Positions 41,115 to 63,968 of a stretch of DNA of 64,000 nt are shown here, in pieces. Source of the DNA: Halapricum salinum (GTDB taxonomy: Archaea; Halobacteriota; Halobacteria; Halobacteriales; Haloarculaceae); NCBI RefSeq assembly GCF_004799665.1, contig NZ_CP031310.1:2410887-2474886 (forward strand), in the 5' to 3' direction. The notes beneath the pieces were generated by a model. That model was given only the letters and a program-made list of their open reading frames with translations. It did not search any database and was not told where the DNA came from. Numbering within the stretch: the stretch's first letter is position 1; each line of letters begins with the position of its first letter. Position numbers and translations under genes: made by a program.

Positions 41115-42142
41115 GTGTCCCCGCAACGATCGACCCGACTCCGGCGACGGCTCGCGGCGACCCTCGTAGCGGTCGTGCTGGCCGATCTGGTGTTCGTCGG
41201 CGCGTTGCTCGGGGCGATTGCCCCCCTCGTCGAGACCCTTCGCACCGCCCTCGCACCGGCGATTCCAGCCACGCTCTGGTGGCTCGTGCTCGTGTCGGTC
41301 GCACTGCTCGCGCTCGTGGCCGTCCAGCTCCGGACCGCCCGGACGATGACGCTCTCGCGGACCGACGTCCGCCGGCTTTCGGAGTCCGAAGCGCCGGCAC
41401 TGTTCGAGCGCGTCCGCCGGCTCGCGACGCTCGCGGACTGCCAGCCGCCCGCGATCGGGCTGGTCGACTCGGACGTCCCGAACTGCTTTTCGGTCGGCGG
41501 ACGCGACCCGATGCTCGTCGTCAGCTCCGGCCTCCGCGACCAACTGAACGACGACGAACTCGACGCCGTGCTGGCCCACGAACTCGCCCACCTCCGCAAC
41601 CGTGACGCGACAGTGATGACCCTCGCGACGTTCCTGCCGACGCTGGCGACCGACCGACCCGTCGCCGGCCTCCCGCGGTGGCTGCGGGCGAACCTCTTCG
41701 GCGGCGCGATCCTGTTCGCGTTCGTCGTCGCGCTGGGCTGGACGCAGTCGGCTTCACCGACTGCAATCGGGCTCGTCGCCGCCCTCTCGCTCGTCCTCGG
41801 CGGCATCGCCCTCGGTGTCCTCGCGACGCCGGTGGTCTATCTGAGCCATCGTCTCTCCCAGGACCGCGAGTTCGTCGCCGACCGGGCCGGCGCGACACTC
41901 TCCGGAAAGCCCGAAGCGCTCGCGAGTGCCCTCGAAAAACTCGACGATAGCGTCGGATCGACCCCTCAGCAGGACCTTCGGTCGCTCGACGGCGTCGTCG
42001 ATGAACTGTGTCTCCTGCCTCACGGGTTCGTCCGCGACGCTGCGGAGGGCGACGGCGGCCGATTCACGATCCGCCTGCGGTCGCATCCGCCCACGAGCGA
42101 GCGGATCGACCGTCTTCGTGAGTTCGCCGCCGAGATCGAGTC

Positions 42143-48222: not shown

Positions 48223-48234
48223 CGAACGTGTTCG
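48223..48234. promoter_or_regulatory. NarO-like palindrome upstream of the DUF2249 gene
   Basis: CGAACGTGTTCG has perfect CGAAC/GTTCG arms around a two-base centre and lies 39 bp before the DUF2249 ATG. It is nearly identical to the CGAAC...GTTCG inverted repeat reported in Haloferax promoters controlled by the oxygen-responsive regulators NarO and DmsR (from memory of that literature). It is followed by an AAATCCTT stretch that may be part of the core promoter. Confidence 0.65.
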
Positions 48235-48273: not shown

Positions 48274-48543
48274 ATGAGCCAGCACGTCGACTACCCGGCA
48301 CTCGCGGCGACCGACGCACCGACGGACCGACCGGTCGAGACGCTCGACGTCCGGTCGCTCGGGCCGCCCCATCCGCTTCGACGGACCCTGGAAACGCTGG
48401 CGGAGTTGCCCGAGGAAACTGTTCTGGTCCAGCGTAACGACCGCGCTCCACAGCACCTCTACCCGAAACTCGACGACCGGGGCTACGCCTACGAGACCGT
48501 CGAGGGCGAAGAGGCGACGTCGACCGTGATCTGGGACCGATGA
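48274..48543 (+). CDS. DUF2249 family protein
   Basis: Small soluble protein of 89 residues. The signature is VETLDVRSLGPPHPLRRTLE near residues 23-42 (the usual form is LDVRxLxPPxPxxx), followed by LPEETVLVQRNDRAPQHLYP and the C-terminal strand TSTVIWDR. DUF2249 proteins are TusA-like in fold and in archaea are often found beside denitrification or other anaerobic-respiration genes. The gene overlaps the next one by four bases (ATGA) and has a NarO-like site in its promoter. Confidence 0.88.
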   Translation: MSQHVDYPALAATDAPTDRPVETLDVRSLGPPHPLRRTLETLAELPEETVLVQRNDRAPQHLYPKLDDRGYAYETVEGEEATSTVIWDR

Positions 48544-49413: not shown

Positions 49414-49518
49414 GTCGACATCCGTCTGTGTCGCCAGCCGACGAGCCACGACGCCTTTTTCGACCTGGAGGCCGAGATGACAGCACATGGCTCGCGCTCT
49501 CGACGCGGGGGACCGTCG

Positions 49519-50148
49519 GTGATCCGCGCTCGCTTTCGGATCGTCCTGCCTCCGGAGGTCTGGGTCGCCGAGGTCTCGACGACATACCCCGAGGCGACGT
49601 TTCGCCTGTTGACGGGCGTTCCGATAGACGACAGCGCGCTGGAACTGGGCGAGGTCCGCACCGACGATCCCGGCCCGATCGCCGACGACATCCGATCGCA
49701 CCCCGACGTCGACGCCTACGATCTCGTCTACGCCGACGAGCAGCGCTCGATCGCCCAGTACGAGGTCGACGAACAGGCGCTGTACGACTTTCTGCTGAAC
49801 TCCTCACTCCCGCCGGAGTTTCCCGTGATCGTCGAGGACGGCGAGATGACCTTCGACGTGACCGCCACTCGCGAACAGTTCGAGGCCTTCGGCGACGCGC
49901 TGGACGCGAGTGCCCGCTCCTACGAACTCCTGTCGGTCGTCCACACCGACAGCGACGAACGCCTGCTCACCGACCGCCAGCGCGAGTGTCTGACTCTCGC
50001 CCAGCGTCGCGGCTACTTCGCGGTCCCCCGGGAGTGTACGCTCGCCGAGGTGGCCGACGAACTCGACGTCGACAAGTCGACGGCCAGCGAGACGATCCGC
50101 CGCGGCACTGCCCGCGTGCTCGAACAGTTCCTGATCGACCGGGTTTGA
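49519..50148 (+). CDS. HTH-10 (bacterio-opsin activator-type) transcription regulator
   Basis: Regulator of 209 residues. The N-terminal domain (about 1-145) opens IRARFRIVLPPEVWVAEVST, the usual start of the family, and may sense a ligand. The C-terminal HTH-10 domain contains LLTDRQRECLTLAQRRGYFA and LAEVADELDVDKSTASETIR. NarO and DmsR, which control anaerobic respiration in Haloferax, belong to this same family, but they carry Cys residues near their N-terminus; none is seen here. An in-frame ATG at 49477 with GGAGG upstream would add 14 basic residues and is an alternative start. Confidence 0.85.
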   Translation: MIRARFRIVLPPEVWVAEVSTTYPEATFRLLTGVPIDDSALELGEVRTDDPGPIADDIRSHPDVDAYDLVYADEQRSIAQYEVDEQALYDFLLNSSLPPEFPVIVEDGEMTFDVTATREQFEAFGDALDASARSYELLSVVHTDSDERLLTDRQRECLTLAQRRGYFAVPRECTLAEVADELDVDKSTASETIRRGTARVLEQFLIDRV

Positions 50149-52028: not shown

Positions 52029-52055
52029 TGTATCTCAGTATCGAGCGTCCCGGCC

Positions 52056-52089
52056 CATAACCGCCGCGCGCGTTCCCAGCGCGTGGGAA
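52056..52089 (-). promoter_or_regulatory. TTCCCA-N5-TGGGAA palindrome and TATA-like element, HTH-10 promoter
   Basis: The 17-bp element at 52073-52089 has perfect TTCCCA and TGGGAA arms around GCGCG. In the direction of the HTH-10 gene it is followed after 11 bp by GTTATG (52061-52056), a TATA-like element, and then by the ATG at 52028. The identical arms and spacing recur at 60379-60395 in front of fixA. Placement just upstream of TATA is where archaeal activators bind. Confidence 0.6.
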
Positions 52090-52176
52090 GCGGAGCATTT
52101 CGCCGGTTGTGTCGAGAGCGGCCTTCCGATCGCAGACGGAACGGATTTTTTGTCGGCCGCGGCCGAACGCTGCGGC

Positions 52177-52605
52177 ATGGACCTGACGCAGTTCGTCGAC
52201 GGGATCGTCCACGAGCCGACCCAGATCGAGGGCCGCGGACTCGATCTCACAGTCGCCGAAATCTACGAGATCGACGCCCCCGGTCGCGTCGACTTCGGTG
52301 GTGGCGAACTCGAGCCCGCCGACCTCGAACCGCACGATCGCACCCTCCGCAACCCCGAGGACGACTACGAGTGGTGGCACCTCGACGCGGGACAGTATCT
52401 GCTGGGATACAACGAGTCCCTCGCGCTGCCCGAGGACATGATCGCGACGATTCAGGTGCGCGAGGCCGTCCGCGATCGGGGTGGCTCTCACCCGACGCTG
52501 TCGCTCGCGGAACTCGGCCACGTCCCGCTGTCGGTCGGTGGCGCGGGTCTTCGCATCAAGGAGAACGCGCGCGTCTCGACGCTGACGGAGATACGGCGTC
52601 GCTGA
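52177..52605 (+). CDS. dCTP deaminase/dUTPase family protein
   Basis: Protein of 142 residues of the dCTP deaminase/dUTPase trimeric fold. Strands around [40 protein letters not shown] and [20 protein letters not shown] follow the family order. The typical deaminase serine-arginine (S-R) element and Gly-Phe tail are not clear, so substrate choice (dCTP or dUTP) is left open. It is a short version compared with the bacterial enzyme (about 190 residues). It stands between the palindrome promoter and the S6e operon, with its own start. Confidence 0.8.
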
Positions 52606-52651
52606 GGTCCTTCTTCCCCGGGGGCTGGCAGTGCCAGCGTGGTTCGACGGG

Positions 52652-52660
52652 CTTTTTAAG
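52652..52660 (+). promoter_or_regulatory. TATA box of the S6e gene
   Basis: CTTTTTAAG lies 22-30 bp before the S6e ATG at 52682, the distance expected for a leaderless or nearly leaderless transcript, the common type in haloarchaea. The upstream bases are CGACGGG, a weak BRE. Confidence 0.65.
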
Positions 52661-52681
52661 CGCGACTGGCAGATTACAGGC

Positions 52682-53071
52682 ATGGCAGATTTCACCGTCG
52701 CCGTTGCCGACCCCGACAGCGGCGTGACGTACCAGATCGACGTCGACGGACAGGACGCGAACCGATTCATGGGCCGAGAGATCGGCGACGAAGTCGACGG
52801 CGGTGCCGTCGGCCTCGACGGCTACACTCTGGAGATCACCGGCGGCTCCGACACCGCGGGCCGACCGCTCCGCGGTGACGTCCGCGGTCCCGACCTCAAG
52901 TCCGTTCTCCTCGAAGGCGGCGTCGGCTACGAGCCCTCGCGTGACGGCGAGCGCAAGCGCGTGACCGTCCGCGGTCGCGAGATCAGCGACGAGGTCCGCC
53001 AGATCAACGCCAGCGTCGTCGCTCGCGGCAGCACCGACGTCGACGAACTGCTCGGCGAGTCCGAGGACTAG
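52682..53071 (+). CDS. rps6e: Small-subunit ribosomal protein eS6
   Basis: Ribosomal protein of 129 residues, part of the archaeal/eukaryotic small subunit. The start [20 protein letters not shown] and the motif [20 protein letters not shown] followed by [15 protein letters not shown] are the family signature; the C-terminal acidic tail replaces the basic phosphorylated tail of eukaryotes. It is preceded by a TATA box at leaderless spacing and followed six bases later by the DUF7112 gene. Confidence 0.97.
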
Positions 53072-53077
53072 GGATCG

Positions 53078-53506
53078 ATGGCCGACCGAATCGCCAGCGA
53101 CACCGAGAGCGTCGCGACTCACCGGCTCACGATCGAGACGGTCGGCCGCACCTCCCGCCCGCGACTCGAACTCCCGGCCGAACTCGACCTCGAAGCGGGC
53201 GACGTCGTCCGCCTGACTCTCGACGGCGGGGAGTACCACGCCCGCGTCGAGTCGAATCTCGACGGCGCACTCGAACTCCGCGGCGCGTTCGACAACACCA
53301 GACTCGCCCGGAGCGACGACGGCGAAGACCGCCTCGCCGCGTGGGTCGACGACAGCGGCGTCGACCCCGGCCGGTCGGTGTTGCTCGACGTCCTGACCGA
53401 GGGCTATCACTACGGACTCCGCGAACCCGGCGAGCGCGTCGTCTACACCGCCCGGGATCCACCGGACGACTCGCTGTCGCGCATCGCCGACTCCCTCGAA
53501 GAGTAG
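53078..53506 (+). CDS. DUF7112-type small acidic protein
   Basis: Protein of 142 residues, no membrane segment. LELPAELDLEAGDVVRLTLD with GGEYHARVESNLDGALELRG reads as a small beta domain resembling AbrB/SpoVT-like strands. The C-terminal half has DPGRSVLLDVLTEGYHYGLR. It follows rps6e by six bases, so co-expression with the ribosome is likely. The family label DUF7112 is from memory of haloarchaeal annotation next to S6e; function unknown. Confidence 0.75.
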   Translation: MADRIASDTESVATHRLTIETVGRTSRPRLELPAELDLEAGDVVRLTLDGGEYHARVESNLDGALELRGAFDNTRLARSDDGEDRLAAWVDDSGVDPGRSVLLDVLTEGYHYGLREPGERVVYTARDPPDDSLSRIADSLEE

Positions 53507-53585
53507 CGCCGTCCCGATTTTCTCGACTGATAGTGGCGCGAAACGCTCAATATTCGCCCTGTCCAAGACGGGTGTAGAGCGGCGA

Positions 53586-54461
53586 ATGTCGGAATCCATC
53601 ATCGCGGACTTCGTCGGATCGTTCAACTCCGAACAGTCCGCGCGCGCCGAGCCCGTCAAAGGTCGGATCCTCCTCAGTCAGAAGCGACTGGTTCTGGCTT
53701 CGGACAAGGGCAAGACACAGATTCCGCTCTCGTCGATCTTCGACGTCGCCGTGGGGCAGGTCCCCGACGAACTCGGCGACTTCTTCAACGCGACCGTCAC
53801 GGTCGCGTTCGAGCGCAACGACAACCGATACATCGCGGCGATCGAGGCCGAAGACGGCACCATCGAGAAGTTCAACTCCGTGCTGTTCAAGGCGCTGCTC
53901 AACGGGACCGAATCGACGGTCAAACACCCCGCTCGGATCGGCGGCCGGGTCACGGGCGCGGAGTTCACGGCGGCCAAACTGTTCTTACAGCCTCGCGAGA
54001 TCGAGTTCCGGCGTGGGGAGAACTCCTTCCGGATCACACTCTCGACGGTCACCGGCTTCGAGCGCTTGACCCGGGAGATAGCCGGCTCGAATCGACCGGT
54101 CCTGGCGGTCAAACACAACCAGGGCGGGCAGTCGGTCCTCTCGCTGGCGGCGCTGCCGTCCGAACGGAAGATGAACGTCCTCGGGCGGTACCTCCGCCGT
54201 GAGTACCGTGAGGTCATGGAGGAGATTCGAGATATCGAACTCTCGAAGGCGGAAAAAGAGATGTTGGTCGCTATCTATTCGTCGGGTGATTTCGATGGGC
54301 TGCCACTGGCGTCGATTCTGGGCAAGGAGGGCAGCGAAGTCGAGATGTTGCGCAGTCAGATGGCGAGCAAAGGCCTCGTCGTCGACGGCGAGGATGGTCT
54401 CCAGTTGACTCCTGCGGGCCGCGTGGTCGTCAACAACCACATGGAAGACATCAACGCCTAG
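53586..54461 (+). CDS. cheF: Taxis protein CheF
   Basis: Archaeal-specific adapter of 291 residues linking phosphorylated CheY to the archaellum motor proteins. The sequence starts MSESIIADFVGSFNSEQSAR and contains KGRILLSQKRLVLASDKGKT, both typical of the CheF (formerly DUF439) family, and a C-terminal winged-helix part KAEKEMLVAIYSSGDFDGLP. No archaellum or Che genes are within the window; in other haloarchaea at least one CheF is in the che region and others are elsewhere. Stops of cheF and DUF3592 overlap by four bases. Confidence 0.9.
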   Translation: MSESIIADFVGSFNSEQSARAEPVKGRILLSQKRLVLASDKGKTQIPLSSIFDVAVGQVPDELGDFFNATVTVAFERNDNRYIAAIEAEDGTIEKFNSVLFKALLNGTESTVKHPARIGGRVTGAEFTAAKLFLQPREIEFRRGENSFRITLSTVTGFERLTREIAGSNRPVLAVKHNQGGQSVLSLAALPSERKMNVLGRYLRREYREVMEEIRDIELSKAEKEMLVAIYSSGDFDGLPLASILGKEGSEVEMLRSQMASKGLVVDGEDGLQLTPAGRVVVNNHMEDINA

Positions 54462-55078
54462 GCGAGCCGTCGCCGCCCCTTCTTGGCCAGCGAGACGAGA
54501 CTGGCGAGGACCATCAGTCCACCGACGCCCATCAGTCCGTAGTGGATCGCCTTTCGTTCCAATCGATCACCCTGCAGGTAGTCTGCCAGGTAGGCTGTTT
54601 CGGGGTCGTCCGGGTCGACGTCGGCCTCGACGGTGTTGCCTGCGGCCCACTGCTCGGTCGCAAGCAACTCCGCGCGTTCGCGCCTGTCGACAGTGTAGCT
54701 TTCAGCACCGGCTTTGACGTTCGAACTGGTGTAGGTTTGCCCGTCGACTGTGTACTCGTAGGTCACCCTGATCACGAACTGTCGGTCCGATCCACTACCA
54801 CGCTGCGTGTAGTCGGATTCGAGCACCGTCGCGTTCATTTTCACGGTCTCGTCTGCCCCGGGCATCTCCGACTGCAGGTGCAGGCCACCGTAGATCAACC
54901 CGCCGCCGATGAGCACGAACACGAGGATTCCCCACAGTGTCGTCTGACTGTCCTCGTCTCCCTTGTCGCCGTCTGACTCTCCTGACTCCGTAGTCCCCCA
55001 GTTGTCTCCGTTTGCCTCCTCGTCGTCCGCTGTCCCCCACCTATCGTCGTCTGCGCCGTCCTCGTTCTCGCGGGACAT
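54458..55078 (-). CDS. DUF3592 membrane protein
   Basis: Protein of 206 residues. The first 45 residues are acidic and disordered with WGT repeats (DRWGTADDEEANGDNWGTTE). Helix one is at about 48-68, helix two at about 178-198. Between them is a beta-rich external domain with VIRVTYEYTVDGQTYTSSNV and the DUF3592 closing element NTVEADVDPDDPETAYL. Function unknown; the family is widespread in bacteria and archaea. It converges on cheF and diverges from nothing close by. Confidence 0.88.
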   Translation of the reverse strand: MSRENEDGADDDRWGTADDEEANGDNWGTTESGESDGDKGDEDSQTTLWGILVFVLIGGGLIYGGLHLQSEMPGADETVKMNATVLESDYTQRGSGSDRQFVIRVTYEYTVDGQTYTSSNVKAGAESYTVDRRERAELLATEQWAAGNTVEADVDPDDPETAYLADYLQGDRLERKAIHYGLMGVGGLMVLASLVSLAKKGRRRLA

Positions 55079-55156
55079 ACAACTGTCTATCTGAATGATC
55101 TGTCTAAAAACCCAGGGACGGATCGCAGCGAACGCTGGACGAAACGCTGACCCACC

Positions 55157-55798
55157 TCACCCCTGCATCTCGACGAACCTCACGCCACCGTGATCTTCCT
55201 GATCGAGCGTCCCGTCCTCGCGTTTGACGGCCCGAACGAGCGTCTGATGACCGCGGCCCAGTGGCGCGAGCAGAATCCCCCCCGGACGGATCTGTTCGAT
55301 CACGTCCGCCGGGAACTCCGGCGCGGCACAGGTCAGATACGCCCGGTCGTAGGGGGCGTGTTCGGCCCACCCGTCGTGGCCGTCGCCGGCTCGGACAGAG
55401 ACCTCGTCGTAGCCCAGGTCGGCCAGCCGTCGGCGGGCCTCCCCGGCGAGGCTGTCGTGATACTCGACGCTGTAGACGTTCTCGGGGCCGACGAGTTCGG
55501 CCGTGACGGCGGCGTGATAGCCACACCCGGTCCCGATTTCGAGCACCCGTGTCCCGGGATCGAGTTCGAGCAACTCGGCCATGATCGCGACCATGTGCGG
55601 GGCGGAGATGGTCTGGCCCTCCCCGATCGGTAGTGGACGGTCGTCGTAGGCGTATTGCTGCTGATTGTCGGGGACGAACTCGTGTCGCGGGACGGCGGCC
55701 ATGGCGTCGAGGACGCGCTGGTCGTCGACGCGCGTTCGGAGCCCTTCCAGCAGGCGTTCGCGCCGGTCCTCGCGGCCGTCGTCGCGCCCGACCATCAT
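55157..55798 (-). CDS. pcm: Protein-L-isoaspartate O-methyltransferase
   Basis: Repair methyltransferase of 213 residues that methylates isoaspartyl sites in damaged proteins. VPRHEFVPDNQQQYAYDDRP and IGEGQTISAPHMVAIMAELL are family-specific; the SAM motif is VLEIGTGCGYHAAVTAELV near residue 84. The C-terminus GGILLAPLGRGHQTLVRAVK completes the fold. The start ATG shares one base with the stop of the zinc-finger gene (TGATG), so the two are coupled; two in-frame GTG codons lie just upstream. The pairing with the HVO_0476-like gene is conserved in haloarchaea. Confidence 0.94.
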   Translation of the reverse strand: MMVGRDDGREDRRERLLEGLRTRVDDQRVLDAMAAVPRHEFVPDNQQQYAYDDRPLPIGEGQTISAPHMVAIMAELLELDPGTRVLEIGTGCGYHAAVTAELVGPENVYSVEYHDSLAGEARRRLADLGYDEVSVRAGDGHDGWAEHAPYDRAYLTCAAPEFPADVIEQIRPGGILLAPLGRGHQTLVRAVKREDGTLDQEDHGGVRFVEMQG

Positions 55799-56445
55799 CA
55801 CCACGCCGACCAGGCGGTCGACGTCTCGTCTCTGAGCAGCAGTCGCTTGACGTCCTTCGCGAAGGCCATGTCGCCGTCGTGGTCGAGTTTCTCGTGGTTG
55901 TAGCCGTGGGCGTCGTCTCGCAGGTGGACCCCCTCGACGGTGAACTCCAGGTCGCCCAGTTCGTCGGTCTCGCCGACGACGAACTCGTAGTCGCCGGGGA
56001 CGTGGACGGTCTCGCTCCGGGTCCCCTCGCGGTCGCCGCCTTTCGGATGGAGGGTCGCGTTGACGCTGACGTTGCCGACGGCGCGGGTCCAGATCGTTCG
56101 GACGTCTTCGGCGGGGGCCTCTTCGACTCTGGCTTCGTCGAGTTCGAGGCTGGTGATCCGGACGGTCATGATCGCCTGCTCGGTGTCGAGCAGGAACTCC
56201 TCGCCGACGGCCAGCACTTCTTCGGCCGGCACGTCGGCGCTGGCCTTGAACGAGTCGCCGTCCTGGGAGACGACGACGTCACGCTGGATGGTCGTCTCCT
56301 CCGGGAGGGTGGTCTTGTGGACGTGATCGCACTCGGTACAGCGAACGGTGGCCTGGCCGCCGTCGCTCAGTAGCTCGTGGACTGTTTCGCGCTCGGGTGA
56401 ACAGGCCGGACAGGGAATGCCGACCCGCTCTGTAGACGCAGTCAT
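55798..56445 (-). CDS. HVO_0476-family zinc finger protein
   Basis: Soluble protein of 215 residues. The N-terminal zinc site uses CPAC near residue 12 and CTEC near 36. Beta-rich middle regions follow (TIQRDVVVSQDGDSFKASAD and AIMTVRITSLELDEARVEEA), then VETVHVPGDYEFVVGETDEL-like strands and a final helix MAFAKDVKRLLLRDE. The family is defined by Haloferax HVO_0476 and is regularly coupled to pcm. Function unknown; nucleic-acid or protein binding is plausible. Confidence 0.85.
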   Translation of the reverse strand: MTASTERVGIPCPACSPERETVHELLSDGGQATVRCTECDHVHKTTLPEETTIQRDVVVSQDGDSFKASADVPAEEVLAVGEEFLLDTEQAIMTVRITSLELDEARVEEAPAEDVRTIWTRAVGNVSVNATLHPKGGDREGTRSETVHVPGDYEFVVGETDELGDLEFTVEGVHLRDDAHGYNHEKLDHDGDMAFAKDVKRLLLRDETSTAWSAW

Positions 56446-56499
56446 ACCCCGAGATACTCGACCGGCGCATAAAAGCCGTGTGACCGGCGCTGTCCGAGG

Positions 56500-58434
56500 T
56501 TACTGCTCGGCGCCCGGCAGATAGATGGTTACCGTCGTGCCGTCGTCGACGTCGGCCGCGACGCGACCGCCGACGCTGGTGGTGACCCAACTGACCAGCG
56601 ACAGCCCCAGCCCGCTGCCGTGTTCCAGGGGTGTCTCGGACCCTCGGTTCAGAATTGCTTGTTCGTGCTCGGCCAGGCCGGGGCCGTCGTCGCCGACGGC
56701 GATGCGAACGTCGCCCGTCTCGTCGGTGTCGACCCGGACGCTGATCGCCGGATCGCTGCCGGCGTGTTCGAGTGCGTTCTCCAGCAACTCTGTGACGGCC
56801 AGGTCGAGCCGTGCAGGGACGAGTGCCCGCGCCGTCGAGGGTGTCTCGACCTGTACTGTCCCGGCTTCGAGACCCTCTCGACACGACTCGATGGCCGATT
56901 CGACGACTGGCACGACGTCTCGCTGTTCCGGAGCGGGCTGTTCGTTGACGGCCGTCTCGAGATCGTGGGCTGTCTCACTGAGTGCTGCCAGTTCCGTGGC
57001 TGCGGCCTGGATCGTCCCTGCAGCCTCGCTGGCCTGCCCCGACAGCGTCTCCGAGAGGTGACTCGCCTGGCCGAGGATGACGTTGGTCTTGTTCCGGAGG
57101 TTGTGCCGCAACACGCGATTGAGGACGCTGATGAGACGCTCGTGACGGGCGCGTTCGGTCACGTCACGCTGAAAGCCGACGAAGTGGGTCACGTCCCCGC
57201 GCTCGTCTTCGACTGGCGTGACCGTCACTTCGTTCCAGAACGGCGTCCCGTCGGCGCGGTAGTTCAGCAACTCGGTCGTGATCGGTTCCTGCTCGCTGAT
57301 CGCCGTCCGTAGCTCTTCGACGGCTTCGGGATCGGTGTTCGGGCCCTGGAGGAACTGACAGTTCTGCCCGAGTGCCGTCTCCGAATCGTACCCCGTGAGA
57401 TCGGTGAACGCGTCGTTGACGTAGACCAGCGGCAGCCCCTCCTCGGCCGCGGCGATCGAGACGCCGATCGATGCGGTGTCTATCGCCCGGTTCTTGACAC
57501 GCAGTTCCCGTTCGCGTTCCCGACGCTCACTGATGTCCCGGACGATGGCCTGGACGTACTCCTCGCCGTCGAGCGTGACCATTGTCGCGCTGATCTCGAC
57601 CGGAACGTGGCTCCCGTCGCGGTGCTCGATTTCGAACGGCGTTCCGTCGTCGAAGCGCGAGCGCGTCTCGACGCCGTCGAAGCCACCTTCGAACAGTTCG
57701 CGATATCGGTCGGTCGCTCCGGCGGGCTGGAGGTCTGTGGAGACACGCCCTTGGAGCGCCGATTCGTCGTAGCCTGTGAGCGAGGCCGCGGCCGCGTTTG
57801 TCTCGACGATCCGGCCGTCTTCGGTGTCTGTCAGCAAGATCGCGTCGGGCGCGGCAGCCAGCAGCGACTCGTACTTCTGTTCGCCCCGTTCGATCTCTCG
57901 GTCGCGTTCGTCGAGACGCCGTTCGTGACGCCTGGATTCGATCTCCCGACCGAGCAGTCGTGCCACGAGTTCGACGAAGGCCCGCTCGGCGGCGTCGAAC
58001 AACCGCTCACGCGGCGCTTCCGAGACGAAACAGACGGTCCCGTAGGTGTCGCCTTCGACGAAGATCGGTGTCCCGAGATAGCAGGCGATTCCCTGCTCGA
58101 TATACGCTGGGTCGTCCGCCCAGCCCTCGCTGATCGCGTCCGACACCGCGAGGGGCTCGTGTTGCTCGATCGTCTGCCGACAGAACGTCTTCGACTGGTC
58201 GATCTCCATCCCGACCGGGACCAGTTGCTCGCGGCCGACGCTGGCGACGATTTCGTGTGTCTCACCGCCGTCGACGATCCGCTCGACGTGTCCGTTCTCG
58301 ACGCCGAGGTACTCACGGCCGATCTCCAGGGCCCGATCGCGCTTTTCGGCCAGTGGGAGTGCCTCGTCGTCGAAGGCCTCGTACAGACGACGGCGGCGAC
58401 GGTCGGCGTCCGTGTTCCGATCTTGCTGGGACAT
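56500..58434 (-). CDS. GAF-PAS-LOV histidine kinase (probable blue-light sensor)
   Basis: Soluble kinase of 644 residues. A GAF domain (about 25-170) is followed by a PAS domain (about 188-305) and a second PAS (about 313-427) that has the LOV motif GQNCQFLQG with the flavin-reactive Cys359, then ELLNYRADGTPFWNEVTVTP and FVGFQRDVTER, all diagnostic for LOV. The kinase core begins with the H-box VLRHNLRNKTNVI (His444), and the ATPase has NALEHAG, DDGPGLAEHE and HGSGLGLSLV. A covalent flavin adduct formed in blue light should switch the kinase. The output partner is not in the window. Confidence 0.93.
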   Translation of the reverse strand: MSQQDRNTDADRRRRRLYEAFDDEALPLAEKRDRALEIGREYLGVENGHVERIVDGGETHEIVASVGREQLVPVGMEIDQSKTFCRQTIEQHEPLAVSDAISEGWADDPAYIEQGIACYLGTPIFVEGDTYGTVCFVSEAPRERLFDAAERAFVELVARLLGREIESRRHERRLDERDREIERGEQKYESLLAAAPDAILLTDTEDGRIVETNAAAASLTGYDESALQGRVSTDLQPAGATDRYRELFEGGFDGVETRSRFDDGTPFEIEHRDGSHVPVEISATMVTLDGEEYVQAIVRDISERRERERELRVKNRAIDTASIGVSIAAAEEGLPLVYVNDAFTDLTGYDSETALGQNCQFLQGPNTDPEAVEELRTAISEQEPITTELLNYRADGTPFWNEVTVTPVEDERGDVTHFVGFQRDVTERARHERLISVLNRVLRHNLRNKTNVILGQASHLSETLSGQASEAAGTIQAAATELAALSETAHDLETAVNEQPAPEQRDVVPVVESAIESCREGLEAGTVQVETPSTARALVPARLDLAVTELLENALEHAGSDPAISVRVDTDETGDVRIAVGDDGPGLAEHEQAILNRGSETPLEHGSGLGLSLVSWVTTSVGGRVAADVDDGTTVTIYLPGAEQ

Positions 58435-58558
58435 CGTGTGAGAAGTGATGCTGTGTTATTTCGTTCGGTCTCGCACCACTCATAAGGTGGGCCCAATTGA
58501 TTAGGGACGCCTGTACTCGTCCCGAACATACAGGGTCTGTCGGTCCATTGAGAGAGAC

Positions 58559-60232
58559 GTGTACGCCCAGTTGGTCGTCGCTGGATCGCTCGCTGCTGGG
58601 GTCGGGACGCTGTATCTGGTCGCCCGTCTCTGGCAGTACCGCGAACGTCCGGGGGCGCGTCTCTTTCTGGCGGCCCTGAGTATGCAGGCTATCTTCTGTT
58701 TCGTCTACGGGGCCGGGCTGCTGGTGTTCGATCCACTGCTTCGGCGGGTCATGGAAGCTGTCGTGTTGCTGGCACTGCCCTGGATGGCGGTGCTGTTTCT
58801 GGGCTTTGCCTTCGGGTACACCGGCCGTGGACACTTGCTCCGGAGCGTCTGGTACGGTATCCCGCTGGCGACCGCCGGGATATTCACGGTTGTCGTCGCC
58901 ACGACGTCGTATCACGGCTTGATCTGGCAGGACTTCGACATCGTCCGGATCGGAGACGCTGCTGGCGCACAGTACACCCACGAGCCGGCGCTGTTCGTGA
59001 TGACGGCGTTCGCCGTGCTCTGGGTCGTCCTCGGGACGGTCCTGCTGTTCGATACCGTCTTCAGCTACGGGCCGCTGTTCCGCGGGGAGGCCATCGCTGT
59101 CGGAGTCAGTCCGCTGTCGCCGGGTGTGGTGGCGCTGCTGTGGCTGTTCGAGGTCGGGCCACAGCCGGTCACCGCGATCAATCTCACGGCGGTCGCGTTC
59201 CTGCCACACGTCGCCCTGGACGGCTACGCGTTCGTCAAACGCGACATGTTCGAATTCCTCCCGGGAACGAGGCGTGCGGGCGAGCAGGCGGCGATCGAGG
59301 ATCTGGCCAATCCAGTTCTTATCGTCGATACCGACGGCCGGATCGTCACGCTGAACCCCGCGGCCGAATCGCTGATCGATCTGGACGAGGAGGCCGCACT
59401 CACGCGCCAGCTGGGCGACGTGCTCGACGCCACAGTCGATCCGGCGGCTGACGAGCAACGGATCGCTCTCAGAAGTGACGGCAAGCGCCGGGAGTACCTG
59501 GTCGTCCCCGCGGAGTTGACAGATACTGCCGGCGGACAGGTCGGATATACGCTGCTCTTTCAGGACGTCACCGAGGCCATCGAGCGCGAGCAGCGACTGA
59601 CGGTGATGAACCGCATTCTTCGACACAACCTCCGCAACGACCTGAACGTCGTTCACGGCTTTCTGGAGGCGGGTCGCGAACGCGTCGACGACACCGAGAC
59701 CAGCCAGATGCTGCGGCGGGCCTCCCGCAAGACCGACGAACTGGTTTCGACCGGTGAGAAGGTCCGGGACATCGAGTCGACGATCGGCGACGCCGGGACG
59801 CGATCGTCGTTTGACCTCGGCTCACAACTTCGGGCGATCGCTGACGACGCCGAACGCGATTCCGGTGGTGTGGTCGAGCGCACAGTCCCCGACGCTGTCG
59901 AGGTCCGGGCCGATCGTGACGTGTTCGAACTGGTCGTCGCCAACCTGCTGGAGAACGCGCTCGTCCACGCCGCCGAAGATGGGGAACCGATTGCGCTGTC
60001 GGCGACAGCCAGCGAAGACGCGGTGACGATCACCGTCGCCGACGACGGACCGGGGATCCCCGAGAACGAACTGGAGACCATCGAACGAGGCACCGAAACC
60101 GACCTCGTCCACGGCAGTGGCCTGGGGCTGTGGATCGTCACCTGGGGTGTCCGCCACCTCGGCGGTGACGTCGCGTTCGACAGCGACGACGACGGGACGA
60201 CGGTGCGGGTGACGATCCCCCGGGAAGCGTAG
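58559..60232 (+). CDS. 7TM-PAS histidine kinase
   Basis: Membrane kinase of 557 residues. Seven hydrophobic helices (about 3-225) form the 7TM sensor of the HisKN/7TMR type. A PAS domain follows (about 235-345, ANPVLIVDTDGRIVTLNPAA), then an H-box RILRHNLRNDLNVVHG (His near 362) and an ATPase domain with LLENALVHAA, DDGPGIPENE and HGSGLGLWIV. The GTG at 58559 is preceded by GAGAGAG. It is divergent from the LOV kinase over 124 bp, so the two may be co-regulated. Cognate response regulator unknown. Confidence 0.92.
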   Translation: MYAQLVVAGSLAAGVGTLYLVARLWQYRERPGARLFLAALSMQAIFCFVYGAGLLVFDPLLRRVMEAVVLLALPWMAVLFLGFAFGYTGRGHLLRSVWYGIPLATAGIFTVVVATTSYHGLIWQDFDIVRIGDAAGAQYTHEPALFVMTAFAVLWVVLGTVLLFDTVFSYGPLFRGEAIAVGVSPLSPGVVALLWLFEVGPQPVTAINLTAVAFLPHVALDGYAFVKRDMFEFLPGTRRAGEQAAIEDLANPVLIVDTDGRIVTLNPAAESLIDLDEEAALTRQLGDVLDATVDPAADEQRIALRSDGKRREYLVVPAELTDTAGGQVGYTLLFQDVTEAIEREQRLTVMNRILRHNLRNDLNVVHGFLEAGRERVDDTETSQMLRRASRKTDELVSTGEKVRDIESTIGDAGTRSSFDLGSQLRAIADDAERDSGGVVERTVPDAVEVRADRDVFELVVANLLENALVHAAEDGEPIALSATASEDAVTITVADDGPGIPENELETIERGTETDLVHGSGLGLWIVTWGVRHLGGDVAFDSDDDGTTVRVTIPREA

Positions 60233-60264
60233 CCGTCGTCCTTCGAGGTGGTCGAGTAGTCGAT

Positions 60265-60282
60265 ACCCCCGCTATTGGGGGT
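60265..60282 (+). terminator. Hairpin after the 7TM kinase gene
   Basis: ACCCCC-GCTATT-GGGGGT is a perfect 6-bp GC-rich stem 33 bp after the kinase stop. There is no T-run, so it may be an attenuating or 3'-end stabilising structure. Confidence 0.35.
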
Positions 60283-60378
60283 CGCTCGGGCACTGCCGGA
60301 CAGGCTCGGTCGGGGCCGGCAGACGCGGTCCGAGAGGCCGGAAGCGCCCCAACTGTCGACGAATCGATCGCCGGGGCG

Positions 60379-60419
60379 TTCCCAGCCGCTGGGAAATCGG
60401 CGTTCGTTTACTATTGATA
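60379..60419 (+). promoter_or_regulatory. TTCCCA-N5-TGGGAA palindrome and TATA element, fix operon
   Basis: The palindrome spans 60379-60395 with perfect arms around GCCGC. Eleven bases later comes TTTACTATTGATAG (60406-60419), the likely TATA region, and the fixA ATG follows at 60476. The arms, 5-bp spacer and distance to TATA are the same as at the HTH-10 gene 8.3 kb away (52073-52089), which suggests one regulator for both. Confidence 0.62.
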
Positions 60420-60475: not shown

Positions 60476-61255
60476 ATGCCAGACGAATGGAACATAGTCG
60501 TTTGCGTCAAGCAGGTACCCGACGCGGACGACGTCTCGATAGATCCCGAGACTGGACGGTTGAATCGATCCGACGCCGCGGCCGTGTTGAACGCGCCCGA
60601 CTACAACGCGGTCGAGGCGGCACTGGAGCTACGCGAAGCTGTCGGCGGCACCGTGACGGCCCTGTCGATGGGGCCGCCGACCGCCGAGGCCGTGCTGCGG
60701 GTCGCCGTCGGGATGGGTGCCGACGATGGCGTCCTGCTCTCGGATCCTGCCTTCGGTGGCAGTGACACGTGGCCGACGAGCCTCGCGCTCGCCCGCGCGG
60801 CCGACGAACTGGACGCCGACGTCGTCATCGCCGGCGAGGAGTCGACCGACTCCTCGACGGGACAGGTCCCGCCGGGGATCGCGGCCCACAACGGCTGGGC
60901 GCAACTGACCTACGTCGAGGGTCTCGAACCCGCGCCTGGGGAGGATCGACTGATCGCAAAGCGTGACGTCGAGGGCGGCTACGAGCGCGTCGCGGCTGAC
61001 CTTCCCGTGGTCGTCGCGATGGGATTCGGCGAGAACAAGCCCCGACCCGCGGGCCTGCACCGCAAGATCTACGCCGAGACCGACTTCGAACCCGAGACCT
61101 GGACCGCCGAGGATCTGGGCGTCGAAGACGAGGTCGGCCTCTCGGTATCGCCGACGCAGGTCGGCGGCATGGACACGGCCGACCCAGTGCCGCGAGAGCA
61201 GGAGGTCGTCGAGGAGACCGACGAGCTGGCCGAACAGATCGCGGAGGTGCTGTAG
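60476..61255 (+). CDS. fixA: Electron transfer flavoprotein beta subunit (FixA)
   Basis: Subunit of 259 residues. The family motif VVCVKQVPDADDVSID starts near residue 8, followed by LNAPDYNAVEAALELREAVG and the nucleotide-binding VVIAGEESTDSSTGQVPPGI. The C-terminus carries the AELAEQ-like helix DELAEQIAEVL. In the bifurcating FixABCX complex FixA and FixB hold FAD that splits electrons from NADH. FixB follows immediately (TAG then ATG without spacer). Confidence 0.95.
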   Translation: MPDEWNIVVCVKQVPDADDVSIDPETGRLNRSDAAAVLNAPDYNAVEAALELREAVGGTVTALSMGPPTAEAVLRVAVGMGADDGVLLSDPAFGGSDTWPTSLALARAADELDADVVIAGEESTDSSTGQVPPGIAAHNGWAQLTYVEGLEPAPGEDRLIAKRDVEGGYERVAADLPVVVAMGFGENKPRPAGLHRKIYAETDFEPETWTAEDLGVEDEVGLSVSPTQVGGMDTADPVPREQEVVEETDELAEQIAEVL

Positions 61256-62281
61256 ATGCCCGGTGGAGACAGCGGCGTCGACGTCGAGCAATACGACGAC
61301 GTCTGGGTCTTCGTCGAACAGCACGACGGCGAGGTCGCAGGCGTCGCCTGGGAACTGCTCACCAAGGGGCGAGACCTGGCCGACCAGCGCGAGGAAGACC
61401 TCGTCGCCCTCGTGATGGGCGAGGATCTCGACGAGACGTCGATCCCCGAGGAGTGTATCGCCCGCGGCGCCGACCGCGTGCTCGTCGCCGACGACCCGGT
61501 GTTCGAGCCCTACAGATCCGATCCCTACGGCGAGCAATTTCGGTATCTAGTCGAGGAGCGCAAGCCCGCCATCGCGCTGATCGGCGGGACCCACACCGGT
61601 CGCGACTTCGCCGGTCGCGTCGCCGTGCCGAACCACGCCGGACTGACCGCCGACTGCACCGAACTGGAGATGGAAAACGGCCGCTACGAGATGCGCCGGC
61701 CCGCCTTCGGTGGCGACGCGCTGGCGACGATCATCTGCCCGGACCACCGCCCGCAGATGTCGACCGTCCGACCGGGCGTGTTCCCGACCGCCGAACCCGA
61801 CGACGACCGAGAGGGCGAGGTGATAGAGGTTGAGGTCGTCGTCCAAGAGGAGGGGACGATGACCGAGGTGCTCGAACGCGAGGTCGGCGACGTCGCCGAC
61901 ATCACCGACGCCGAGGTCGTCGTGGCCGGCGGGATTGGCGTCGAGGGCGACTTCGAGCCGCTGTGGGACCTCGCGGAGGTGCTCGGCGGCACCGTGGCAG
62001 GGACTCGCGACGCCGTCGAAGAGGGCTGGATCGAACCCGCGCGGCAGGTCGGCCAGACCGGCAAGACCGTCCGGCCGGATCTGTACATCGCGGCCGGGAT
62101 CTCGGGTGCGATCCAGCACCTGGAGGGCATGGACGACAGCGAGACGGTGATCGCGATCAACACCGACCCCAACGCCCCGATCTTCGACAACGCCGACTAC
62201 GGGATCGTCGCCGATCTCCACGAGGTGATCCCCGAACTGATCGCGTACTTCAGTGAGGACAGACAGGAGGTGCCAGCATGA
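61256..62281 (+). CDS. fixB: Electron transfer flavoprotein alpha subunit (FixB)
   Basis: Subunit of 341 residues. The N-terminal domain (VWVFVEQHDGEVAGVAWELL) is ETF-like; the C-terminal FAD domain has VVVAGGIGVEGDFEPLWDLA, then ARQVGQTGKTVRPDLYIAAG and SGAIQHLEG, NTDPNAPIFDNADYGIVADL. Those are the standard FAD-binding motifs of EtfA. The start abuts the fixA stop, and the end overlaps the fixC start by four bases (ATGA). Together with FixA it accepts electrons from NADH. Confidence 0.95.
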   Translation: MPGGDSGVDVEQYDDVWVFVEQHDGEVAGVAWELLTKGRDLADQREEDLVALVMGEDLDETSIPEECIARGADRVLVADDPVFEPYRSDPYGEQFRYLVEERKPAIALIGGTHTGRDFAGRVAVPNHAGLTADCTELEMENGRYEMRRPAFGGDALATIICPDHRPQMSTVRPGVFPTAEPDDDREGEVIEVEVVVQEEGTMTEVLEREVGDVADITDAEVVVAGGIGVEGDFEPLWDLAEVLGGTVAGTRDAVEEGWIEPARQVGQTGKTVRPDLYIAAGISGAIQHLEGMDDSETVIAINTDPNAPIFDNADYGIVADLHEVIPELIAYFSEDRQEVPA

Positions 62282-63633
62282 GCGAGAGCGAGATGCAGCG
62301 GACGGGCACCGAGGCGCCGAACTACGACGACCGCTACGACGCCATCGTCGTCGGCGCGGGCCTGGCCGGCTCGTCGGCCGCGCTGACGCTCGCCCGGCAG
62401 GGCTACGATCCGCTCGTCATCGAGCGCGGCCCCTCGCCCGGGACCAAGAACGTCTTCGGTGGCGTCCTCTACACCCCGCGGATCCGCGAACTGACCGACT
62501 TCGAGGACGCGCCGAAGGAACGCTACGTCGCAAAGAAGACCTACAGCATGCTCAGCGAGGAGGGCGACGAGACCTCGATGTCCATCGCCCCGTCCTCCTG
62601 GCGCGAGGAACCGCACAACGACTCGTGGATGGTCCTGCGGCGGGACTTCGACGAGTGGTTCGCCGAGCAGGCCGTCGAGGAGGGTGCCACTCTCGTCACG
62701 GAGACGACGGTGACGGACCTCATCGAAGAAAATGAGGAGGTCGTCGGCGTCCGGACCGACCGCCCGGACGGTGAGATCCGCGCGCCGATCGTCGTGCTCG
62801 CGGAGGGCGCGAACTCCCTCGTGAGTGAAGGCGCGGGTCTCAAACAGCAGGACAGCCGCGACAACGTCGCCGTCTCGGTCAAGGAGGTCCGCAAGTACGA
62901 CCGCGATACGATCGAAGATCGCTTCCACCTCGACGGGCAGGCCGGACTCGCCGCGCACTACTTCGGCGACGGCGCGGTGGGCGACGCAGTCGGCGGCGGC
63001 TTCCTCTACACGAACAAGCGCACCGTCTCGATCGGCGTCGTCTACTCTATCGAGGACGCCGCCCACTCCGACAAGACGCCGGACGAAGTTCTGGAGGAGT
63101 TCAAACAGCACCCCGCGGTCGCGCCGCTCGTTCGGGGCGGCCGGATGCTCGAATACTCCGCTCACGCCATCCCGGAGGGCGGGCCGGACTCGATGCCTGA
63201 ACTCGTCCACGACGGCGCGGTCATCGTCGGCGACGCCGCCGGGCTCGTCCTCAACAGCGGGATCCACCTCGAAGGGACGAACATGGCCGTCGAGAGCGGC
63301 TATCACGCCGGGCAGGCTATCTCCGACGCGCTCGAGAACGGCCGGACCGACGCGGCCGCGCTGGCGAGCTACGAGACCGAACTTCGGAATTCCTACGTCG
63401 TCCAGAACCTCGATCACTACGGCTGGTTCATGGACACCGCGGCCGCCGAGCAGGAATTCCTGTTCGACGACCTCCCCCGCGCGCTCGGGCAGGCGGGCGA
63501 GGAGTACTTCAAGATGGACGACACCCCCAAGGAGGAGCACGTCTCCGAGGCGAAACAGCGAATCCTGACCGCGACCGGCGGCTGGTTCGGCGCGGCCAAG
63601 AAGGCCTGGAAGTTCCGCAAGATGCTGTCATAA
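62278..63633 (+). CDS. fixC: ETF:quinone oxidoreductase-type flavoprotein (FixC)
   Basis: Flavoprotein of 451 residues. The dinucleotide motif VVGAGLAGSSAALTLARQGY is near residue 25 and GTKNVFGGVLYTPRIRELTD follows. The C-terminal half includes GDAAGLVLNSGIHLEGTNMA, the FAD contact typical of ETF-QO/FixC. FixC passes the low-energy electrons to quinone and works beside FixX. It overlaps fixB by ATGA and ends three bases before fixX. Confidence 0.95.
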   Translation: MSESEMQRTGTEAPNYDDRYDAIVVGAGLAGSSAALTLARQGYDPLVIERGPSPGTKNVFGGVLYTPRIRELTDFEDAPKERYVAKKTYSMLSEEGDETSMSIAPSSWREEPHNDSWMVLRRDFDEWFAEQAVEEGATLVTETTVTDLIEENEEVVGVRTDRPDGEIRAPIVVLAEGANSLVSEGAGLKQQDSRDNVAVSVKEVRKYDRDTIEDRFHLDGQAGLAAHYFGDGAVGDAVGGGFLYTNKRTVSIGVVYSIEDAAHSDKTPDEVLEEFKQHPAVAPLVRGGRMLEYSAHAIPEGGPDSMPELVHDGAVIVGDAAGLVLNSGIHLEGTNMAVESGYHAGQAISDALENGRTDAAALASYETELRNSYVVQNLDHYGWFMDTAAAEQEFLFDDLPRALGQAGEEYFKMDDTPKEEHVSEAKQRILTATGGWFGAAKKAWKFRKMLS

Positions 63634-63635
63634 CC

Positions 63636-63968
63636 ATGAGCAAAGCACAAACCACTCCCAAAGTTCCGGACACGCCCGACGTCGAGAACGCATCGATCGA
63701 AGACCGCCTGTACACGGTCAAGTACAAGGACAGCGGCGAGAGCCACCTCGGGATCACCATTCCGGGGATCTGCGACGAGAAGTGTACGACCTACGAGTGT
63801 ACGAACGTCTGCCCCGCCGACGTCTGGCGGGCCGAGGAGGGCGGCGTCCCGACCATCGCCTACGAGAACTGCCTCGAATGTGGGAGCTGTCGGTTCGCCT
63901 GCCCGCACGGCAACGTCGAGTGGGAGTATCCCGAGACTGGAAATGGGGTCTCCTACAAGTACGGGTAG
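63636..63968 (+). CDS. fixX: Ferredoxin-like protein FixX
   Basis: Ferredoxin-like protein of 110 residues. The Cys motif NCLECGSCRFACPHGNVEWE near residues 78-97 provides a 4Fe-4S cluster, with ECTNVCPADVW upstream holding the remaining conserved Cys residues. It is the last gene of fixABCX and is complete in the window. The complex links oxidation of NADH to reduction of quinone and of a ferredoxin or similar acceptor (family knowledge). Only 32 bp remain after the stop. Confidence 0.94.
   Translation: MSKAQTTPKVPDTPDVENASIEDRLYTVKYKDSGESHLGITIPGICDEKCTTYECTNVCPADVWRAEEGGVPTIAYENCLECGSCRFACPHGNVEWEYPETGNGVSYKYG

Follow-up and report, generated by a model that had tools for sequence, protein, structure and literature searches.

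HTH_10 regulators in haloarchaea and the HTH_10 protein of this locus

The closest described systems to the locus analyzed here are those of NarO and DmsR, which act in denitrification and DMSO respiration in Haloferax and Halobacterium, and NarO is characterized by a Cys-rich motif. It has been reported that NarO, DmsR, and Bat are activators and that NarO and DmsR are devoid of PAS and GAF domains (PMC11218638). NarO is the sole transcriptional regulator of haloarchaeal denitrification described to date, and the protein that binds its motif was still undisclosed in 2024 (PMC11218638). The Bat/bop UAS system of Halobacterium salinarum likewise combines an HTH_10 domain with an activator sequence associated with TATA (PMC2253796 and PMC11218638).

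In the window, that is, the whole stretch of 64,000 nucleotides of Halapricum salinum DNA that was analyzed, we characterized an HTH_10 regulator gene (referred to here as HTH-10), the fixABCX operon, and the promoter elements of both (Table 1). The 214-residue HTH-10 protein is classified, by its predicted domain architecture, as a DmsR_N-HTH_10 regulator. DmsR_N (PF24277) was detected above the cut-off with an E value of 5.3e-38, and the C-terminal HTH_10 domain (PF04967) with an E value of 7.9e-22; these two were the only domains found by Pfam, PAS and GAF domains being absent. Cys16 and Cys82 were invariant among 28 homologues, and Cys84 was at least 90% conserved. In the AlphaFold model (pLDDT 83.9), the sensor part is alpha/beta and the C-terminal domain is helical; the HTH domain resembles sigma region 4 folds. 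Foldseek gave a single match at E < 0.001, Ta1207 of Thermoplasma, which says little on function. A second HTH_10 protein, of 223 residues and without DmsR_N, is encoded at 49477-50148, about 1.9 kb from the HTH-10 gene.

Table 1. Positions of the HTH-10 gene, the fix operon, and their promoter elements in the window
Feature	Position	Strand	Remarks
TATA-like element GTTATGGG of the HTH-10 promoter	52054-52061	-	11 bp (52072-52062) between operator and element
HTH-10 gene operator	52073-52089	-	TTCCCA-CGCGC-TGGGAA on the minus strand; 44 bp to ATG (52028)
HTH-10 regulator, 214 aa	51384-52028	-	DmsR_N (1-137) and HTH_10 (156-207); Cys16, Cys82, and Cys84
fix operon operator	60379-60395	+	TTCCCA-GCCGC-TGGGAA; 80 bp to the fixA ATG (60476)
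TATA-like element TTTACTAT of the fix promoter	60407-60414	+	11 bp (60396-60406) between operator and element
fixA, ETF beta-type electron transfer flavoprotein	60476-61255	+	Pfam ETF, E = 3e-38; NCBIfam EtfB/FixA-type matches under curated cut-offs
fixB, ETF alpha-type	61256-62281	+	NCBIfam ETF-alpha matches
fixC, FixC-type FAD oxidoreductase	62278-63633	+	NCBIfam FixC-type match, E = 7e-87
fixX, FixX-like ferredoxin	63636-63968	+	NCBIfam FixX, E = 2e-9

By Pfam naming, HTH-10 has the same DmsR_N and HTH_10 architecture as NarO and DmsR, and the locus resembles those systems also in the lack of PAS and GAF domains, in a palindrome near TATA, and in anaerobic-metabolism targets. The operator, however, is TTYYCA-N5-TGRRAA here, whereas the motif published for Haloferax is CGAA-N4-TTCG or CGAAYATDKTYG (PMC10062603, PMC11218638, and PMC5746218), and the putative regulon here differs from theirs in including fixABCX, feoAB, and hydrogenase-type genes. 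Bat is distinguished by its PAS and GAF sensor domains, of which HTH-10 has none.

CGAA-N4-TTCG was absent from the fix and HTH-10 promoters, so that a NarO-type operator at these promoters was rejected. The motif matched the window twice, at 41689 and 48223, whereas chance would yield about 2.4 matches in the window. The match at 48223-48234 (CGAACGTGTTCG) precedes a DUF2249 gene (ATG at 48275) by 40 bp; it has been reported that DUF2249 genes of Haloferax mediterranei bear this motif (PMC11218638).

Paired operators at the HTH-10 and fix promoters

The palindromes upstream of HTH-10 and fixA both have perfect TTCCCA and TGGGAA arms and a 5-bp spacer. The preliminary description had presented them as identical 17-mers. 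Its coordinates, its perfect arms, and its spacer length were reproduced, but not the spacer letters, which read GCGCG at HTH-10 and GCCGC at fix on the plus strand; identity thus holds for the arms only. The other regularity it had pointed out, a distance of 11 bp from each site to a TATA-like element, was confirmed at both promoters. A recent promoter duplication was ruled out, since the flanks differ outside the palindrome and TATA.

The four fix genes lie in the order fixA, fixB, fixC, and fixX in one gene run and constitute a FixABCX gene set. It has been proposed that FixABCX is electron bifurcating in anaerobic haloarchaea (PMC6176080). On the other side of the HTH-10 operator, a divergent gene (52179-52605) encodes a product of 142 residues with no Pfam match, which is dCTP-deaminase-like by eye. 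Regulation of the gene at 52179 by the same site was unsupported here, as no AT-rich element was present at +12 on that side. In the relative G003 (locus L125), an AT-rich element does lie on the divergent-gene side of the shared operator as well.

We counted the operator genome-wide by pattern searches, with the reversed pattern as a control. The scan for the 17-mer suggested in the preliminary description returned only two perfect copies of TTCCCA-N5-TGGGAA in the 3,452,056-bp genome (3.45 Mb), namely, the two promoter sites, and none of the reversed pattern. When one mismatch was allowed, 13 places were found (control, 5), among which five copies (L003, L004, L009, L010, and L012) were attributed to chance by their position or their lack of a TATA-like element. 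When up to two mismatches were allowed and an AT run was required at a fixed 11 bp downstream, the counts were 20 and 4.

The degenerate form TTYYCA-N5-TGRRAA, derived from homologous promoters, occurred at 8 sites in the same genome (control, 0). For seven of these, a plausible start codon is no more than about 100 bp away; the eighth, at 2870249, lies 49 bp before a 64-residue ORF that precedes the MCH gene. Six congeneric genomes contained 46 such sites, at 5 to 9 per genome, and none of the reversed form. Together with AT letters at +13 and +14, the degenerate operator was present in 81 of 96 genomes of the family, control matches being sporadic. The abundance of the operator is well beyond chance. 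A single-sequence scan of genome contigs yielded two Halovenus loci only.

That the two sites are palindromes coinciding by chance is scarcely conceivable. When the window was considered by itself, the match count at up to two mismatches was reached in 5 of 100 shuffles, but the perfect palindrome is unique to the two promoters in the genome, the operator is conserved at both of them in multiple genera (see below), and the reversed-pattern controls gave zero matches; a chance palindrome was excluded on these grounds.

Conservation of the operator and the protein that probably reads it

Footprinting was carried out on 160-bp upstream stretches of 14 fixA homologues and 30 HTH-10 homologues. With no more than one mismatch, the operator was found upstream of fixA in 11 of the 14 (and, in addition, in genome G003) and upstream of the HTH-10 gene in 24 of the 30, compared with about 0.25% of shuffled promoters. 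In the fixA homologues, positions +12 to +15 past the operator are 100% A/T; in the HTH-10 homologues the A/T peak spans +13 to +16, with A/T at +14 to +16 in at least 96%. The letters between operator and TATA vary among homologous promoters, implying that the conservation is not a mere lack of divergence. Besides, fixA and the HTH-10 gene are unlinked in relatives (in G001, for example, they lie at 408 kb and 2222 kb), and hence the shared operator is no by-product of linkage. The HTH-10 gene keeps the operator in genera g2, g7, g13, and g20, for which no fixA match was obtained in the genomes searched. Distant fixA homologues (G090 and G094) and distant HTH-10 homologues of other families often lack the site. 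As judged from these sequence comparisons, the paired sites represent a genuine control site that evolution has conserved.

We consider that both sites serve a single regulator as upstream activating operators and that this regulator is most likely the DmsR_N-HTH_10 protein of the window, with a probability of roughly 0.7. That HTH-10 controls itself and fixABCX, as proposed in the preliminary description, is the best-supported reading of the sequence data, in that the operator tracks both unlinked promoters across genera. The proposal was nevertheless too narrow in scope: the operator marks a larger gene set, including other HTH-10 regulators, and the fix promoter would be one of about 8 to 10 targets. 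The closer the best match to HTH-10 in a genome, the more sites that genome tended to have (Spearman rho = 0.64, n = 55, phylogeny uncorrected), the mean being 6.2 in genomes with a close match, 1.75 in those with a distant match, and 1.1 in those with none.

A conceivable but unlikely alternative is that another regulator, either a DmsR-type paralogue or a Bat-like HTH_10 protein, reads the operator and that HTH-10 is just one of its targets in a cascade. Two further DmsR-type paralogues in the same genome (1444760-1445416 in clade 3 and 1641253-1641891 in clade 2) carry comparable operators in or close to their promoters, so that cross-binding is possible, and an HTH-10 gene in L164 likewise has a similar site. 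Bat-like HTH_10 proteins without DmsR_N are also encoded in these genomes. Against this, both paralogues are missing from several genomes in which the operators of fixA and HTH-10 are retained. Among 12 genomes tested, orthologues of the clade-3 paralogue were found only in G000 (the genome of the window), G001, G004, and G005, and were missing from G002, G045, and the genomes of genus g9, where the fixA operator persists; the clade-2 paralogue was confined to G000 and G066, and the fixA operator was kept elsewhere. HTH-10 is thus the sole full-length DmsR-type paralogue common to every tested genome that keeps the fixA operator. Furthermore, positions 3 and 4 of the half-site are CC, TT, or CT, and never TC, in the fixA sites and the HTH-10 self-sites, whereas the clade-3 self-sites always have TC. 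Finally, the self-site travels with clade 1, to which HTH-10 belongs, over many genera.

Putative target genes and proposed mode of action

About 6 to 8 promoters in the genome carry the operator beyond those of HTH-10 and fixABCX. They include the promoters of feoA/feoB, a chemotaxis transducer, an SDR, a DUF7521 membrane protein, an HTH-10 paralogue, and the small ORF before MCH, as well as, at one mismatch, those of DoxX, a DUF7560 zinc-finger/PNPOx/HTH-10 cluster, and a TIGR04053 radical SAM gene. In relatives, the operator was found at a [2Fe-2S] thioredoxin-like gene next to a sulfhydrogenase-beta/AsrA-like 4Fe-4S gene, at genes for RibD_C, ferredoxin, PaaB-like, halocyanin, multicopper oxidase, hemerythrin, and CoxG proteins, and at radical SAM genes related to AhbC/NirJ. 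DoxX, DUF7521, and the [2Fe-2S]/4Fe-4S pair recur as putative targets in more than one genus. It has been reported that the Ahb heme pathway is required only for anaerobic growth in Haloferax (PMC5746218). Taken by predicted gene function, the mix of targets looks like a regulon for low-oxygen, anaerobic, or redox adaptation.

A stretch of 11 bp separates the end of the operator from the TATA-like element, both at the fix and HTH-10 promoters and at most of the other targets; an activator in contact with the TBP/TFB-promoter complex would be expected at just this place. The operator, this position, and their conservation are features of the DNA itself; from them we infer binding by HTH-10, activation, and a redox signal. 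An HTH-10 homodimer would bind the palindrome directly upstream of BRE/TATA through its sigma-region-4-like HTH_10 domains and, once bound, would help to recruit TBP/TFB. The N-terminal domain, which contains Cys16, Cys82, and Cys84, might sense oxygen or redox state, possibly via a metal or Fe-S center, and the dimer would bind when this domain is reduced or oxygen is low. Under low oxygen, HTH-10 would then activate its own gene and electron transfer genes (fixABCX, hydrogenase-type subunits, and Fe-S proteins) together with genes for ferrous iron uptake, radical-SAM heme synthesis, and taxis.

The position by itself would also be compatible with repression, in which a dimer by BRE/TATA blocks TBP/TFB and HTH-10 represses both its own gene and fix, and autoregulators are often negative. 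We regard this as improbable, because the site stops 11 bp short of the TATA-like element at most targets and does not overlap it, and because NarO, DmsR, and Bat, its known relatives, have been reported to act as activators (PMC11218638).

A broader picture may also be drawn, to which we would give slightly less than even odds. The operator would define a low-oxygen regulon shared across the haloarchaeal lineage, as an archaeal counterpart of FNR; in it, a Cys-containing DmsR-type activator would link fixABCX directly to oxygen or redox state. The HTH-10 paralogues would have their own variants of a single operator code (TTYYCA versus TTTCCA half-sites), regulator and operator having diverged together.

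The DmsR_N-HTH_10 type of regulator is known, and the operator and regulon, which we did not find described, are apparently new: a DNA-pattern search of the literature (titles and abstract openings) did not recognize the operator, and a literature search found no earlier report linking fixABCX to such a regulator. The present analysis may thus provide a second, distinct haloarchaeal operator, linked to one particular regulator gene and to a brief list of targets, and a candidate regulator for fixABCX. The half-site with 11 bp to TATA might serve as a sequence rule for reading HTH_10 regulons in other haloarchaea.

Variant sites were also observed in relatives. HTH-10 promoters of genus g13 (L091 and L097) contain a second near-match, with two mismatches, within 160 bp. 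The self-operators of genus g12 (L099, L106, and L108) are shifted to TTCCCR-N5-TGAGAG, with few or zero canonical sites, which suggests that operator and regulator changed together in this genus. In genus g2 (L180, L184, and L191), a conserved TTTCCAGAATCTGGAAA variant lies upstream of halocyanin genes and possibly belongs to a different regulator.
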